Of a DNA stretch of 48,345 nt, positions 15,769-35,241 are shown piece by piece. How positions within the stretch are numbered: position 1 is the stretch's first letter; each line of letters begins with the position of its first letter. Under the pieces are notes generated by a model. That model saw only the letters and a list, made by a program, of their open reading frames with translations. It ran no database searches and was not told the origin of the DNA. A program made the translations under genes and the position numbers. The DNA comes from a virus. The DNA is taken from IMG/VR virus record IMGVR_UViG_3300047322_000336, positions 1 through 48,345 of that record. One strand, 5' to 3'.

Positions 15769-15796
15769 AAAAAGCCCCTCTTAAGGGGCTTTTTTG
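15769..15796. terminator. Bidirectional intrinsic terminator
   Basis: AAAAAGCCCC, a 6-base loop and GGGGCTTTTTT form a stem flanked by A-run and T-run, so it works on both strands. It separates the converging late operon (+) and nucleotide-metabolism operon (-). Confidence 0.88.
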
Positions 15797-16221
15797 TTGC
15801 TCAACGTTAGCCATGTTCGACCAAAACGCTTCCAGACTGCTTCAGTGCTATCCCGGTCGGGCCACGTATCGCCAGTGACGATAACCTGCACCGGGCTGTC
15901 CAACAGATACGGCAGACATTTGATGCAGGGCGGGCGGGTAACCACAGCCGTGTGCAAGAAGGGGTAGCTGCCCTCCTTTGCAGCCTGGAGCAGCGCCCGA
16001 ACTTCGCTATGCATGGCGCAGCACGTAGCGCTTGCCGTGGTTAGCGTGTCCGCGCCGTCGTTGCAGTCGCACTTGCCGTCAAACCGGGCGTTGGCCGACC
16101 GCACCACGCGGTAGCCGTCTTCGTTGTAAAGGTAGGTCGCAACAGCGGCGCGGGGGCAACCCCCCGCAACCTCTGCGAACCTGTTAGCGTGCTCAAGCGC
16201 TTCTGACAGGTCAAGTTGCAT
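15781..16221 (-). CDS. Deoxycytidylate (dCMP) deaminase-like protein
   Basis: The 146-residue product has the cytidine/deoxycytidylate deaminase zinc site: H71-S-E73 within CAMHSEVRAL and C99-x-x-C102 in PPCIKC. Such enzymes turn dCMP into dUMP. The start ATG overlaps the upstream gene's stop (TGATG), with GAGGTGG before it. It is the last gene of the operon with the hydroxymethylase-like gene. It might act on dCMP, on a modified dCMP, or keep the dCMP/dUMP balance. Extra cysteines (CDC, residues 51-53) could bind a second zinc as in T4 Cd. Confidence 0.8.
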   Translation of the reverse strand: MQLDLSEALEHANRFAEVAGGCPRAAVATYLYNEDGYRVVRSANARFDGKCDCNDGADTLTTASATCCAMHSEVRALLQAAKEGSYPFLHTAVVTRPPCIKCLPYLLDSPVQVIVTGDTWPDRDSTEAVWKRFGRTWLTLSNKKAP

Positions 16222-17024
16222 CACGCCACCTCAATTCCCAACTCAAGACAGCGGGCAACAAAGGCTTTCCAGGCCGCATCCCATTCAGCGTTCCAGGCTG
16301 CCGGGCCGCAGGAGTTTGTATAGGCCTGGCAGTAGGTGCGCAAGATTTCAGCGGCTCGCGCTTCTTCGCCTTTAAAGACGTGCCCCGAAGCCGCGTAGTG
16401 GTAGTAGTCGCCTACCGGCACTCCCAGCTGCAACGCTACATGTTCCTGCAACCGGGCAAAGACAAAGATGTCTTGGCACACGGTTGTAGTGTAGTTGTTG
16501 GAGCGCATAACCCCGACAAGGTCCAGTTTGCCGCTACGCAGCCGGAAGTTATACGCATACGTGCAAAGGTACTCACACTTGGTATCGCCCGCCGCCATGG
16601 CTTCAGCAACCATTTGGTCAGTAGAACCCAACATCATGATGTTGGCGCGGCGGCTGCCTGGGTCGCGTTGCAGTTCACTGATAACAAAGCTCAGTTGTGA
16701 CTTGATGCGCGGGCCGTAGGCGGTAACGTGGTAGCCGTACTTTTCGTCGTCCAAGATGGTGGCGAACTTGGCGGCGTTGGGGTTGAGCGCCAGCATTTCC
16801 GGCGACACATGGACCTTGCCCGAAATGATCCATTCAGCCATAACACCGGAAAATTCCGTGCGGAAGCCCCGCGCCGGGTTGGCAATGCAGCGCTCGGTAG
16901 GGTGGCGCGGCGCCGGAAGTTGGAACGTATGGTTAATCAATTCCATGTCAGGCGCCAGAAACGCTTGCAACAGATTAGCGTGGTACACGTCTTCCCAATA
17001 TTTCGAAATGGGGGTGAGGTTCAT
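16221..17024 (-). CDS. Thymidylate-synthase-fold dCMP hydroxymethylase candidate
   Basis: The 267-residue product has the TS fold landmarks: KYGYHV...YG near 96-104, S124-R-R phosphate site, and nucleophile C154 in YLCTYAYNF, 11 residues before GKL as in TS and T4 gp42. MRSNN follows at 173-177, then D185, and finally GHVF with H215. The MRSN motif and D185 match T4 dCMP hydroxymethylase (MRSND ... ND), where Asp replaces the TS Asn that selects uracil. I therefore favour dCMP over dUMP as substrate. Methylation instead of hydroxymethylation cannot be excluded. It lies 1 base after the methyltransferase gene and is translationally coupled to the deaminase. Confidence 0.78.
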   Translation of the reverse strand: MNLTPISKYWEDVYHANLLQAFLAPDMELINHTFQLPAPRHPTERCIANPARGFRTEFSGVMAEWIISGKVHVSPEMLALNPNAAKFATILDDEKYGYHVTAYGPRIKSQLSFVISELQRDPGSRRANIMMLGSTDQMVAEAMAAGDTKCEYLCTYAYNFRLRSGKLDLVGVMRSNNYTTTVCQDIFVFARLQEHVALQLGVPVGDYYHYAASGHVFKGEEARAAEILRTYCQAYTNSCGPAAWNAEWDAAWKAFVARCLELGIEVA

Positions 17025-17025
17025 A

Positions 17026-17988
17026 TCAGACTTGCTCCAACCGAATGCCAAAGTGACTGAGGCTATGTATACCAGAAACGGCCATGAAACCGGCGTCTTG
17101 CGCCTCGGCTGCAACCATTTGTTCGCTGATGCACTGCCCCGCCTCAGTCATGTCATGCATACGCCACTCCAGGCGCAGGTTCGGGTACTGTTCAATGACC
17201 AGCAAAACACCACTTAGCTTCAACAGTGACTTGGCGCGCTGCAACAGAAACTGGCGTTCGGCAGGGCCTTTACAGTGCAGGATTTCGCTCAACAGTACAA
17301 CGTCATACGCCCCGGCGTGATTGGCAAAGAACTGGTCGTCCTTGAACGCGTCACCGGCTTTGATACCCATGCGGGCGAGCACAGCGCCGGAAGCCTTGGT
17401 AAGCCCTGGCTCACGGTCGTACAGCAAACCTTGCGCCGTCGGATTTGCGGCCAAAAAGCTGGCCAGGTAGCCACCGTTACCGCCGCAATAGTCAAAGAAC
17501 TTCAACGGATTTGGCACACTCAACTTGCCCTGTTCTGCGACCCACTGATGCATATCAGGGAGAAACGCAACCGAGTAGTTTTCCAACCCGCCGCGCAGTG
17601 CAACGTACTTGGCCGGGTCCGTCTCGAAAGCGCCGTCCAGCTGTTGCTGCATCATGCTGAACTCGTATTCCAACAGCGCTTGGCAGTCGATAACGCGCTT
17701 ACCCGCGCCGGTCAGATAGACTTGCGGGCCTTCCTGCTCCCGGTTGAGGTCAATACCTCGGTCTTCAACTTCGATGAGACCCAAGCGCGCCCAACAGGTA
17801 GCAACCGGGTTGGCCTCAGTCGGGTTGGATTCCCACACTTTCTGGCGAATGCCCTTGATGAGCGCGGCAAACATCCAGGCGCCTTCCATCACAGCGTAGA
17901 TTGACGGGCCGTCTTCGGTGCGTGGGAACAGGAACTGCATACCGTTGGAAAACAGGCCGGTGGTTTCTTGCATTGTCGATTCGGTCAT
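17026..17988 (-). CDS. SAM-dependent O-methyltransferase-like protein (COMT type)
   Basis: The product has 320 residues. The N-terminal third looks like the winged-helix dimerisation domain of plant-type O-methyltransferases (LGLIEVEDRG ... VYLTGAGKRV). The C-terminal Rossmann domain has motif I DYCGGNGG at 166-173, acidic D191 after strand 2, and YDVVLLSEILHCKGPAERQFLLQRAKSLLKLSG near 228-260, typical of the Methyltransf_2 family. It lacks the DPPY and PC motifs of DNA methyltransferases. The family acts on small hydroxylated molecules. Here it lies between the kinase fusion and the hydroxymethylase candidate, so a hydroxymethyl-nucleotide or hydroxymethyl-DNA substrate is a reasonable guess but not shown. 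Confidence 0.7.
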   Translation of the reverse strand: MTESTMQETTGLFSNGMQFLFPRTEDGPSIYAVMEGAWMFAALIKGIRQKVWESNPTEANPVATCWARLGLIEVEDRGIDLNREQEGPQVYLTGAGKRVIDCQALLEYEFSMMQQQLDGAFETDPAKYVALRGGLENYSVAFLPDMHQWVAEQGKLSVPNPLKFFDYCGGNGGYLASFLAANPTAQGLLYDREPGLTKASGAVLARMGIKAGDAFKDDQFFANHAGAYDVVLLSEILHCKGPAERQFLLQRAKSLLKLSGVLLVIEQYPNLRLEWRMHDMTEAGQCISEQMVAAEAQDAGFMAVSGIHSLSHFGIRLEQV

Positions 17989-17991
17989 GGC

Positions 17992-19356
17992 TTACCCCTT
18001 AACCTTGAGAACTGGGAGGACGTACTGTTGGATGTAATCGTCGATACTGTGATTGTCCAAGCTGGCCATTTCCCATTGTTGCATGTCAAACACTTCGACG
18101 TTTTGTGGTTGGCGTTCTGGCCCTGCTGCACCGCTGAACGCGTCACGGAAACCTTCGTACACGGCGCGGGCTTTGGCCTCATTCGGGCCATGAAGCTCTA
18201 CACGGGTGCCGCACATGTGTTGGTAGCCCGCAAACCATTGATCTTCATCGGCAGGGAGGGCGATGATGTTGAGTAGCGAGTCAACTTCAGTGTGGTCTTT
18301 CCAGACACGCACGTCGGAGGCGTTGTACTCGCCAGCGCGGTACACTTCAGAGTAGACAGGGTGCGACAACCAAGGCCGTTCTAGTACCACAACGCAGTTA
18401 TGCGCCAACGCTGCCGCGTATTGAATCGCGTGGTAGCGGTAGTCGTGCATGACGGCTTCCAGCTGCTTGCTCCAGGTCAGGTGAATAACCTGCCCGCTGA
18501 ACAACTCGGCAATGCGGGCAGCCAGGGTGCTTTTGCCGCTGGCGTCCGGGCCGTCAATGGTGATGAGGCCACAAAGGTTCTTTGGCCCTGCGGTTTGGCT
18601 GTTGGAGCCTGGCGCGGCGTAGTCCATCGAAACGTGGTTGGCGCTAATAGGCTGTTGCGCGGTTTCGTACACCGGTTCTTCGATGTAAGGCCCCTGCCCG
18701 CAAAGGTCGCCAAGGTACGGCGGTAGCCAGCCATCAGGTTTGGTGATTTCCAGCCCGTGCCCTGTGTCCAAACCCTGCTCTTTGAGCGCTTGGCTACGGC
18801 GCTGTTTAGCTGGGTCAATGTCCTTGTTCATGTTGGCAGCGTGAACGCGGCGCAGCGCTTCATCAATATCGAAACAGTGCATTTGAGCCGTGGCGCGGAA
18901 AGCGCGAATGGCTTCGTTGAGCGCCATGCCTTGGCCAATCAGGTCACCCCGGCGCACGCGCTCTTCATAGCTGTGCAGTACGGCAGCGTGGCGGGCGGCG
19001 CGCATGTTGTTGGCGTCTTGGGCCAGCATATGCGGCTTAACGTCGCGGTAGCCCAGTGCGATTGGGGCGGTAGTGATGTATTCGCCCAACCCTTGACGAT
19101 GAACGGTGCCGGTCAAGAAATAAAGTTCGTCAGCCAGGGCGTCCAAACAGTCGACAATTTCAAAGTCCTTAACCGCGTCCAGGTACTCTTGAGCTTCTTC
19201 CAGGTGGCATTCCATGCGAAACGCCGATTCAGGTTTGCTCAATTCACGCGGCTGGCCGTCGTAGGGCTGGCCGAACTTGTTGTGGAATTGGGTCAACATC
19301 TGGAGCAGCGTCATTTTGGCATACGGCGTGGTGTCATACATTTTAAACTTTGGCAT
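17992..19356 (-). CDS. MazG-like NTP pyrophosphohydrolase fused to dNMP kinase
   Basis: The product has 454 residues. The N-terminal 215 or so are an all-alpha MazG/phosphoribosyl-ATP-pyrophosphohydrolase-like domain: E49, E53, E54, E57 in ECHLEEAQEYL, then DCLDALADELY at 69-79, and a second conserved block VHAANMNK (171-178) with KPDGWLPPYL. From about 262 a P-loop kinase begins: IDGPDASGKST (Walker A 269-277) and ERPWLSHPVYSEVYRAG near 326-342, like dTMP/dNMP kinases. Hydrolysis of a dNTP to dNMP and rephosphorylation of a modified dNMP would bracket the hydroxymethylase step. The gene is 3 bases from the methyltransferase gene. Confidence 0.8.
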   Translation of the reverse strand: MPKFKMYDTTPYAKMTLLQMLTQFHNKFGQPYDGQPRELSKPESAFRMECHLEEAQEYLDAVKDFEIVDCLDALADELYFLTGTVHRQGLGEYITTAPIALGYRDVKPHMLAQDANNMRAARHAAVLHSYEERVRRGDLIGQGMALNEAIRAFRATAQMHCFDIDEALRRVHAANMNKDIDPAKQRRSQALKEQGLDTGHGLEITKPDGWLPPYLGDLCGQGPYIEEPVYETAQQPISANHVSMDYAAPGSNSQTAGPKNLCGLITIDGPDASGKSTLAARIAELFSGQVIHLTWSKQLEAVMHDYRYHAIQYAAALAHNCVVVLERPWLSHPVYSEVYRAGEYNASDVRVWKDHTEVDSLLNIIALPADEDQWFAGYQHMCGTRVELHGPNEAKARAVYEGFRDAFSGAAGPERQPQNVEVFDMQQWEMASLDNHSIDDYIQQYVLPVLKVKG

Positions 19357-19672: not shown

Positions 19673-19903
19673 TTACAGTTGCATCCAGGCTTTTGGCAGC
19701 GGGCGCTTGCCGGGGTGTTGATTATGGAGTCGGGTCACTAGCGAAGCGGCTAATATACGCCATTTATGAGGGGGGCAGGTGGAGCGGGCTGACCGGCTTC
19801 CACAAGTGACCTCGACTGTACAAGTGAGGCCTATGTGGTTAAACCGAACCAGGGCCACGGCGTTGTTGCCGCGAACCCTGATACGAAGCCGCTTAGATTT
19901 CAA
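19673..19903 (-). CDS. Possible small hypothetical gene
   Basis: A 76-codon frame begins with TTG 10 bases inside the upstream gene's end and fills an otherwise empty 230-base gap on the coding strand of a compact operon. The product is basic (RLRIRVRGNN, GKRPLPKAW). There is no clear ribosome site, and TTG is an uncommon start here, so expression is uncertain. It would need re-initiation after the preceding gene. Confidence 0.35.
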   Translation of the reverse strand: MKSKRLRIRVRGNNAVALVRFNHIGLTCTVEVTCGSRSARSTCPPHKWRILAASLVTRLHNQHPGKRPLPKAWMQL

Positions 19904-20408
19904 GGGCGTCGGCAGCAGCCTTAGCCTTTGGAGCGGCTTTGGCTTTCGGTGCTGCTTTGGTAGTAGCCTTGGGCGCGGTGCCTTTCTTCGGCGCAGCGGG
20001 TGCAGAAGCAGCCTTGGACGCCACAGCCTTTTTTGCTGGTGTGGCCTTCACAGGTGCTTTGGCTACCGGCGCTGGCTTTGCAGCTGGCTTGGCCTTGGCA
20101 ACTACAGCGGCTTCCTTGGCTTTCGCTTCGTTGGCCTTGTGGTACTCGGCGTGGGGGCCTTTCTTGGCAGCAGCCATGTTAGCGGCTGCCCATTCGCGGT
20201 GGTCGGGGCTGCCTACAGCGGCCAAGTCAGCGCCGATGAGGCCCTCAACCAACAGTTCGCGGCGGTACTTGGTGCAGTGCTTTTTGTCAACACTGGATTC
20301 CGGGAACGCGGTTTGAACTTCGCTGATGATGGCATCATCGGTTTTCTTCTTGATGATGAGGGCGCGAATCAGGTCTTTAGCGGTTTTGCGTTCGGTTGGC
20401 TTAGCCAT
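19893..20408 (-). CDS. Possible nested product of the H1-like gene
   Basis: An in-frame ATG at 20408 has an excellent ribosome site (TAGGAG, 8 bases spacing). The 171-residue product would keep the helical domain and Lys/Ala tail but lose the cysteine domain. The boundary falls between domains. Seen: SD and frame. Inferred: expression. Confidence 0.45.
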   Translation of the reverse strand: MAKPTERKTAKDLIRALIIKKKTDDAIISEVQTAFPESSVDKKHCTKYRRELLVEGLIGADLAAVGSPDHREWAAANMAAAKKGPHAEYHKANEAKAKEAAVVAKAKPAAKPAPVAKAPVKATPAKKAVASKAASAPAAPKKGTAPKATTKAAPKAKAAPKAKAAADALEI

Positions 20409-20957
20409 GGGTGTAGCTCCTATTTCTGAGATGAGTGCGGTTAAGCGGTCTATTGGCAACTGTACGTGGTGTCCACGTTTCAGGCCGTTTGGCAGGTCAC
20501 CAGCAAGGCGAATAACCACCATGCCGGGGAGTCTAGCTGTTGCCAAATCAGTTGTCAAGTCGCTTTCCACCGCCGCGTTTACAGACACTGGGGTACTGTC
20601 GTTCGAGGTTGGGTTATTGAGCGCATTGCAAGCCAGTTTGGCAGCCTTTTCGGACTTCTTGAGCGTGGCAACCGCGCCGGTTTGGCGGTGGATTACAGCC
20701 CATTCGGATTTGACGTTTTCGATGTAGTACGGCAGACCTCGGCAGGTGGTGCAGCAGTCGGTTTCCAGGTCGTCGGCCAATTCGGTACGCGCTGGCAACT
20801 GCTGCTCGCCCCAAATCTTAACGCCGCTCGGCATACTGGCCATGTGCTTTACATGGGCAGCTGCCGTGCCATTGCAGAACGCGCAACGGGTCAACTCAAA
20901 CAGCGAGTTTGTCAGCGGGTGGAAATGGGAAGCCGGGGTGAGGACTAATTCGGACAT
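19893..20957 (-). CDS. Protein with Cys-rich N-terminus and histone H1-like tail
   Basis: The product has 354 residues. The N-terminal 100 hold CAFC and CCTTC pairs, possible zinc ligands, then a stretch with Trp and basic residues. The middle (about 184-270) looks like a folded helical domain. The last 90 residues are almost only Ala, Lys and Pro (KAPVKATPAKKAV and repeats), like histone H1 or AlgP tails that bind nucleic acid. The start follows CTGGAGA. The function may be DNA compaction or regulation; family not recognised. Confidence 0.7.
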   Translation of the reverse strand: MSELVLTPASHFHPLTNSLFELTRCAFCNGTAAAHVKHMASMPSGVKIWGEQQLPARTELADDLETDCCTTCRGLPYYIENVKSEWAVIHRQTGAVATLKKSEKAAKLACNALNNPTSNDSTPVSVNAAVESDLTTDLATARLPGMVVIRLAGDLPNGLKRGHHVQLPIDRLTALISEIGATPMAKPTERKTAKDLIRALIIKKKTDDAIISEVQTAFPESSVDKKHCTKYRRELLVEGLIGADLAAVGSPDHREWAAANMAAAKKGPHAEYHKANEAKAKEAAVVAKAKPAAKPAPVAKAPVKATPAKKAVASKAASAPAAPKKGTAPKATTKAAPKAKAAPKAKAAADALEI

Positions 20958-33892: not shown

Positions 33893-34690
33893 ATGAAACT
33901 TGTCTCCCCCGCCCTGCTCATTGAAGCATTGGCTGCCCGCTGGAACTCTGACGATAAGCCAGAAATGGAAATCGTCGCAGACTTCATCACCGACTACGCC
34001 AAAGACAGCGGCTTTGACATCCCGTTGAAAATCGTGTTGGCGCACTACGTCGGTGAGGCCGACTTGTTCAACCCCCAGGCCGAGTTGCCGTTGACGCCGG
34101 GCCAGTACAGTGATTTGTACAGTCAAGAGTACGACTACAAGGCCCACGGCGACCCTACTCCGCGTGATTGCCATTTCCCAACTAACGAACTCGGCTCTGA
34201 TGCAATCCCGGCTGCCCCTACCCGCCCTGCTGCGTTCAACCGCAAGCAAATTGACGACATGATGCAGTCCGATTGGGTGCATAGCAGTGAAGGTGAAATG
34301 CACTCCTTTGGCCCGGCTGGCAATGGCGATGTTGCAGCGCTGCTAGTCGGTGAGCTAAGGGGCGGCAGGCTGTTTGTCCACACGACCTACAAGGGCAAAG
34401 CTGCCGAAGCTGCTGCGCGTAAGTACCTGTTTCGCTTAACCCGCCCCACCCCAAGGGAACCAATTGGCGGCGAGCACGGTGACAGCTCAAAACCCGCTAA
34501 GCCGTTTTTGTCGCCAACAGGCCGCTTCCCTACGCAACCTGAAATGCAAGAACTTCCAGGGCGCCGTATGGCAGCTAAGTACACCACCCTACCACTGCAA
34601 CTTAAGTGCGATGGTTGCGGCAAGATGTTCCACCCCACCCTGACAGCTGATGTCCTTTGCTTCGACTGCAAAGAAGCGAATTCGCTATGA
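33893..34690 (+). CDS. Hypothetical protein with C-terminal zinc ribbon
   Basis: The product has 265 residues from ATG 33893 (AGAGGT upstream). The N-terminal 45 are helical; a middle domain contains GRLFVHTTYKGKAAEAAARKYL. The end has CDGCGKMFHPTLTADVLCFDC, a CxxC...CxxC zinc ribbon. Its stop overlaps the DenV-like start, so the two are co-translated and may share a DNA-related role. Family not recognised. Confidence 0.65.
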   Translation: MKLVSPALLIEALAARWNSDDKPEMEIVADFITDYAKDSGFDIPLKIVLAHYVGEADLFNPQAELPLTPGQYSDLYSQEYDYKAHGDPTPRDCHFPTNELGSDAIPAAPTRPAAFNRKQIDDMMQSDWVHSSEGEMHSFGPAGNGDVAALLVGELRGGRLFVHTTYKGKAAEAAARKYLFRLTRPTPREPIGGEHGDSSKPAKPFLSPTGRFPTQPEMQELPGRRMAAKYTTLPLQLKCDGCGKMFHPTLTADVLCFDCKEANSL

Positions 34691-35241
34691 CCCGCATAAA
34701 CACCATTGACGTTGACCTACTCCCTATGCCCTGGCTTGTTGCAGAGTACCGTGAATTGCCGCGTATCCTGAACCGTGTTGCGGCGGGCAAGCCCTTCCCG
34801 CTCATTCCCGTAAACTACTGCATGGGCACCGGCCACGTTAGCTTCTTCGGCAACAAACTGAACTGGCTGTACGCACGTCATGAAGCGTTGCGCGCTGAAC
34901 TTAAGAAGCGCGCTGAACTTAAGAAGCGCGCTGAACTTAAGAAGCGCGGCGGCAAGGCTGATATGGACTGCAACGCAGCCTACAGGCTTTGTATGGAGCG
35001 CTACCCTAAGTTCTGCAAAAGCCGTTGGGTGCCAGACCTGCGCGACCACGAAACCAACCTCTGCCGCCTTGTAGAAAGCTGGGCACGGGCCAAGCGTATG
35101 GACAACGCGGGCCTAGAGGCTTGGCTGACGAAGGCATTGCAGCGTCACATGATGCCCAAGTTTGAATACAAGTTGACGCCGTTGGAGAACGATCCAGTGG
35201 CCCGAACCCTTAACTTTACAGTGGATATACAGCCATGCTAA
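34687..35241 (+). CDS. denV: DenV-like pyrimidine dimer DNA glycosylase
   Basis: The start TRIN...AEYRELPR aligns directly with T4 endonuclease V: Thr2 (the Schiff-base N-terminus after Met removal), Arg3, E23 and R26 are at the same positions. GTGHVSFFGNKL matches the T4 GAGHVTFFYDKL segment. The enzyme cuts out UV-made pyrimidine dimers. The 184-residue product is longer than T4 DenV (138), partly because of three exact AELKKR repeats after residue 68 and a longer C-terminus with Cys residues. Confidence 0.88.
   Translation: MTRINTIDVDLLPMPWLVAEYRELPRILNRVAAGKPFPLIPVNYCMGTGHVSFFGNKLNWLYARHEALRAELKKRAELKKRAELKKRGGKADMDCNAAYRLCMERYPKFCKSRWVPDLRDHETNLCRLVESWARAKRMDNAGLEAWLTKALQRHMMPKFEYKLTPLENDPVARTLNFTVDIQPC
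34893..34946. repeat. Three tandem 18-bp units inside denV-like gene
   Basis: The 18-bp unit starting CGCTGAACTTAAG is present three times without change and in frame, giving three AELKKR hexapeptides that lengthen one helix. Absence of any mismatch suggests recent expansion. Confidence 0.93.

Follow-up and report, generated by a model that had tools for sequence, protein, structure and literature searches.

What would a virus make with a MazG-like/kinase fusion, a methyltransferase, a thymidylate synthase (TS)-fold protein and a dCMP deaminase encoded side by side? This question is raised by a 48,345-base record of an uncultured virus, the whole of which we refer to as the window. Its four genes are tightly packed, all on the - strand. 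They encode a fusion of a MazG (PRA-PH) pyrophosphohydrolase with a P-loop dNMP-kinase-like domain (17992..19356, -; PF01503, phrog_761), a COMT-like SAM-dependent O-methyltransferase of 320 aa (17026..17988, -; PF00891, AF2 fold), a TS-fold cytidylate-modifying enzyme of the D169N clade described below, apparently of the 5-hydroxy-dCMP synthase type (16221..17024, -; PF00303, residues, trees and hhalign), and a dCMP deaminase (15781..16224, -; PF00383, phrog_174, zinc motifs). All of the open reading frames are present and their domains were matched in Pfam, in agreement with the sequence-only reading that first described the run. For the TS gene, an ATG at 17024 is better placed as the start than the TTG of the mechanically called frame.

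The operon and its recurrence

A run of leftward replication genes, encoding an exonuclease, an ssDNA-binding protein, a PolA-type polymerase, a nuclease and a SNF2-type helicase, ends downstream with the operon. A terminator-like hairpin with a T-run lies at the deaminase stop codon (15775..15787, -) and is likely the operon end, the number of terminator-like sites in the region being not above chance. On the same strand, 19893-20957 (-) encodes a protein of 354 aa whose low-complexity tail is rich in Ala and Lys and for which no Pfam family scored above cut-off. Its domain (TAKDLIRALIIKKKTDD...KHCTKYRREL) is kept upstream of the cassette in related contigs and is recognisable in Pseudoxanthomonas phage PW916. 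Elsewhere in the window, 34657-35241 (+) encodes a T4 DenV-like pyrimidine-dimer glycosylase (phrog_1183).

We found the operon in six uncultured phage contigs, the window and five others. The identical four-gene order is present in the IMG/VR contigs L001 and L003, and also in G004. L044 has the MazG-kinase, methyltransferase and TS genes in the same order and stops just before the deaminase gene, which was found at the opposite end of the contig. L010 carries the MazG-kinase, methyltransferase and deaminase genes followed by a peptidase-U32 gene, and no TS gene was found on this 26.7 kb fragment. In five contigs (window, L001, L003, G004 and L044) the methyltransferase gene sits between the kinase and TS genes. 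Identities to the window proteins were 80% (TS) and 77% (methyltransferase) for L001, 65% and 60% for L003, and 43% and 35% for G004/L020, with 57% for the TS of L044; the MazG-kinase is 80% identical in L001, 57% in L003 and 38% in L020. Because the same gene order recurs in related contigs, the operon is more than a chance arrangement; it and its conservation are real. In pattern-seeded searches the methyltransferase family was seen in these six contigs only; neither bacterial or archaeal genome collections nor a set of 50,697 phage records gave a match. A DNA-level search of named phages also gave no match.

Cytosine as the probable target and the class of the TS-fold enzyme

We next consider which base the operon would modify. 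The TS-fold protein matches PF00303 and, in E. coli numbering, has Asp at N177 and Thr at H147 and keeps the catalytic Cys146. Asp177 and Cys146 are present in its relatives as well, as in T4 gp42. Asp rather than Asn at position 177 is known to disfavour dUMP. In the MetaGPA study, the TS proteins of modified and unmodified contigs are told apart by residues 147 and 177 (Asn to Asp at the latter). PF00303, PF01503 and PF00383 form the set enriched in contigs with experimentally modified cytosine, where PF00303, PF01503 and PF00383/PF14437 are found together with a 5hmC carbamoyltransferase (PMC8670742). The domain set of the operon matches that of the modified-cytosine contigs, which supports the earlier proposal of a dedicated pathway to a modified dC nucleotide. 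With the cytosine-selecting Asp177 and the catalytic Cys in the TS-fold protein, cytosine modification is well supported, and as judged from these sequences the operon very probably targets cytosine.

The class of the enzyme was then addressed with residues and trees. D169, the Asp that contacts the folate pterin in TS, is Asn in the window protein, and E58 is Met. Both residues are retained in T4 gp42 and Aeromonas 25 gp42, and E58 is also kept in the Mosigvirus enzymes. The dCMP-hydroxymethylase hallmarks originally ascribed to this protein thus stand in part, with Asp177, Thr147 and the catalytic Cys present and D169 and E58 replaced. In the trees, the window group clustered with the enzymes of Mosigvirus (RB69-like), Serratia CBH8 and Thanatos with 100/99 support, together with those of Acinetobacter Acj9, DLP3, PAU, Atu_ph04 and P10VF, and all three trees left T4 and Aeromonas gp42 outside this clade. 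D169N occurs in 13 of 13 clade members and in none of the 10 sequences outside, and maps to one change on the tree. Profile comparison by hhalign agreed, with an E-value of 4.3e-24 to the Mosigvirus-type profile versus 1.4e-8 to the T4 gp42 type. The protein therefore does not lie among plain thymidylate synthases, an outcome that would have spoken against the original proposal, but groups with enzymes of the 5-hydroxy-dCMP synthase type. A T4-type dCMP hydroxymethylase was rejected as its class, given Asn at D169, Met at E58 and the failure of a forced clade with T4/Aeromonas gp42 (AU p 0.0027), and the description of the operon as a T4-like dHMP triad is accordingly not supported.

What the clade makes is indicated by two groups of phages. 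According to one report, the modified cytidines of Mosigvirus derive from 5-hydroxy-dCMP made by the TS homologue, and the DNA contains arabinosylated 5-hydroxy-dC with the sugar ether-linked at C5 (PMC13390438). The cytosine of Thanatos DNA bears a deoxypentose attached directly through an O-glycosidic linkage (PMC12838424). Clade membership and D169N make a 5-hydroxy-dCMP synthase the better-supported assignment for the window enzyme. The window group is a deep branch, sister to the characterised clade enzymes, and its product could for that reason differ from 5-hydroxy-dCMP. Met at position 58, where the Mosigvirus enzymes keep Glu, also speaks against this assignment. These comparisons also suggest that D169N in TS homologues may be a sequence marker that separates C5-hydroxylation from C5-hydroxymethylation; if this is true, many phages annotated with a ‘dCMP hydroxymethylase’ could be re-read.

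In the main alternative, the enzyme would be a genuine dCMP hydroxymethylase and the methyltransferase would act on 5-hydroxymethyl-dC, converting it to 5-methoxymethyl-dC or methylating it in another way. Asp177 and the catalytic Cys, being common to the window protein and T4 gp42, are compatible with this reading, as is the partnership of the MetaGPA MazG, TS and deaminase cassette with a carbamoyltransferase that modifies 5hmC (PMC8670742). Stenotrophomonas phage AXL3, whose analogous cassette has a TS that keeps D169, lends it further weight, since its DNA resisted all 35 G/C-site enzymes tested and was cut only by two A/T-site enzymes of the 37 tried (PMC7504290). However, the window enzyme has lost the folate-binding D169 and also E58, and its forced grouping with the AXL3 TS was rejected (p 0.0009) in the same way as that with T4 gp42. 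We judge this alternative unlikely, though it deserves to be taken seriously. Since the TS groups with 5-hydroxy-dCMP-synthase-type enzymes and the gp42 grouping is rejected, the methylated group is more likely the ring hydroxyl, giving 5-methoxycytosine, than the hydroxymethyl group originally envisaged. On this sequence evidence a C5-hydroxyl, not a hydroxymethyl, is probably the group that is modified.

Regarding structure, an AF2 model of the TS built from three sequences was too poor to use (pLDDT 47). The closest solved structures, 9iqc and 9iqu, differ very little in sequence from the Mosigvirus-type TS homologue. The same is true of 9ir2, and all three PDB entries are labelled only ‘thymidylate synthase’; a structure of the D169N clade thus exists.

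The methyltransferase and a possible route to 5-methoxycytosine

The methyltransferase scored 23.0 bits against PF00891 (gathering cut-off 22.3), and relatives reached 25.2 and 41.3 bits; the more distant L010 protein had no PF00891 match. Its AF2 model had a pLDDT of 65.7 overall and mostly 80-93 in the C-terminal domain, and matched the tyrosine O-methyltransferase MfnG (Z 21.5) and the O-methyltransferase 3mcz (Z 21.1). As modelled, the protein has the fold of small-molecule O-methyltransferases of the COMT/ASMT-like kind. These results support its role as the candidate decorating enzyme. Phages with 5-hydroxycytosine carry a gene of sugar-transferase type next to the TS gene. We found no sugar transferase, in keeping with the earlier remark that no glucosyltransferase is visible, and a search for the Mosigvirus C5-sugar transferase in the window and its relatives found none. 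Pfam and PHROGs comparisons of the remaining right-arm genes, beyond the structural block at 0-15.7 kb, showed no glycosyltransferase or other modification domain, although several of the genes compared had no match.

The remaining genes are consistent with a nucleotide pathway. The MazG half of the fusion matches PF01503 (PRA-PH/MazG) at 32.1 bits and carries an EExxE...D acidic motif (EEAQE...DALADE). The kinase half has a P-loop match to cytidylate/thymidylate kinases that falls under the cut-off and also matches phrog_761. As a whole, the fusion is distantly similar to the MazG and kinase of AXL3, which are separate genes there. A distant MazG/kinase-like homologue, with 26% identity over 84% of the window protein, is also encoded at L006:6001-7086 (Vibrio phage VP-1), in the Vapseptimavirus phages. 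The deaminase matches PF00383 at 28.8 bits (cut-off 25) and phrog_174 (dCMP deaminase), with its zinc motifs kept as HxE (CAMHSE) and PCxxC (PPCIKC).

Together, these features suggest that the operon would make a modified deoxycytidine triphosphate during infection. The MazG half would convert dCTP to dCMP, on which the TS-fold enzyme, to judge from its clade and residues, would place an oxygen at C5 to give 5-hydroxy-dCMP. The methyltransferase would then cap the phenol-like hydroxyl with a methyl group from SAM, yielding 5-methoxy-dCMP, while the deaminase would turn surplus dCMP towards dUMP/dTMP. The modified dCMP would be phosphorylated by the kinase half and then by host NDP kinase, and the phage PolA-type polymerase would incorporate the triphosphate in place of dC. 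The product would be restriction-resistant DNA with 5-methoxycytosine. Methylation is more likely to occur on the nucleotide than on DNA, since mononucleotides are the substrates of all the neighbouring enzymes and the methyltransferase shares its fold with enzymes that O-methylate small molecules. We put forward this reading, 5-methoxycytosine replacing dC and made at the nucleotide level, tentatively, at or somewhat below an even chance.

The proposed route follows the logic of the T4 gp56/gp42/gp1 pathway to 5hmC, in which dCTP is destroyed and dCMP is modified, phosphorylated and incorporated. Unlike the window, T4 has a TS-type enzyme of another clade with the folate-site Asp kept, and glucosyltransferases instead of a methyltransferase. 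The MetaGPA 5-carbamoyloxymethyl-C cassette also combines PF00303, PF01503 and PF00383 with one decorating enzyme, which there is a carbamoyltransferase acting on 5hmC and in the window a methyltransferase (PMC8670742). A precedent for hydroxylation followed by O-methylation is found in Bacillus subtilis tRNA, where TrhP (U32) is needed for ho5U and the COMT-like YrrM methylates it to mo5U, both encoded in one operon (PMC6599085). As in our proposal, a pyrimidine is hydroxylated at C5 and then O-methylated; the Bacillus system acts on uridine 34 of tRNA, whereas a cytosine nucleotide or DNA is proposed here, and YrrM is likened to the window protein by its COMT-like description.

To our knowledge, 5-hydroxycytosine has been recognised as a scaffold in phage DNA only recently, and its known decorations are sugars. 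Our literature search, in which the primary 5-hydroxycytosine phage papers were known through papers citing them, returned no 5-methoxycytosine in phage DNA and no account of it as a natural DNA base, and O-methyl capping of 5-hydroxycytosine was absent from the phage DNA-modification papers so surveyed. A methyl cap, if true, would be the simplest neutral decoration and would stabilise an oxidation-prone base. It might also escape type IV defences that sense sugars or hydroxymethyl groups, and 5-methoxycytosine would hide the phage from bacterial defences.

Peptidase-U32 genes and parallel cassettes

The peptidase-U32 family includes RlhA and TrhP, factors for C5-hydroxylation of rRNA and tRNA pyrimidines. 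U32 genes accompany D169N TS homologues in phages; the Mosigvirus one lies two genes ahead of TS. We found them in Mosigvirus, CBH8, Thanatos, L010, L014 and G004; family members lie at L010:9415-10524, L014:2-688 and L021:2334-3494. Searches of the window, L003, L044, T4 and AXL3 found none, one of them being run without an internal positive control; one search that was negative for the window matched two other records in the same run. Nor was U32 found in DLP3, Acj9, PAU, Atu_ph04 and P10VF, which belong to the window TS clade, or in the D169-type phages tested. The failure to find it in the window, L003 and L044 counts against the 5-methoxycytosine reading, although DLP3 and Acj9 lack it too. 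By its distribution, U32 appears tied to the D169N clade but is not universal in it, and possibly is not essential. By analogy with the RNA enzymes, it is a possible partner in 5-hydroxycytosine synthesis.

These observations bear on a second alternative, in which cytosine is modified but the methyltransferase-fold protein methylates N4, O2 or a carboxylate, or aids hydroxylation in the manner of RdmB. RdmB (aclacinomycin-10-hydroxylase) shares the fold and is the second Foldseek match. In addition, the His of the RMHDMT motif, a candidate catalytic base whose equivalence to the plant His is putative, is replaced by T, Y, E or A in relatives, and a window without U32 may need another oxidising partner. 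However, the best structural and sequence matches (MfnG, 3mcz) are O-methyltransferases. L010 pairs the methyltransferase with a U32 gene and G004 holds U32, TS and methyltransferase together, indicating that the methyltransferase is no simple replacement for U32. We hold this alternative to be quite unlikely, and O-methylation of the ring hydroxyl remains our preferred role for the protein.

Known loci resemble the window to different degrees. Those of Mosigvirus (RB69/NP), the CBH8 type and Thanatos share a D169N-clade TS, an adjoining P-loop TMP-kinase-like gene and a decorating enzyme next door. They add a pentose through a glycosyltransferase and sugar-nucleotide genes, whereas the window carries an O-methyltransferase at this point, the search for such a glycosyltransferase having been negative. 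AXL3 and PW916 have methyltransferase, MazG, kinase, TS and dCMP deaminase genes in one run, and in PW916 a gene similar to that at 19893-20957 lies upstream. The papers on these two phages read their genes as ordinary nucleotide metabolism, but for the window a supply of dTTP by dCTPase, deaminase, TS and kinase with an unrelated methyltransferase is very improbable, in view of Asp rather than Asn at TS position 177 in every relative, the loss of D169 and the methyltransferase gene kept between kinase and TS in five contigs. The parallel AXL3/PW916 cassettes (L007:3569-7603 and L005:934-4846) further differ from the window in their folate-type TS with D169 and in having MazG and kinase as separate genes; Asp177 is present in the AXL3 TS. 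Their methyltransferases, with no PF00891 match at E 0.01 and a best match to PF13489, belong to a different family from that of the window.
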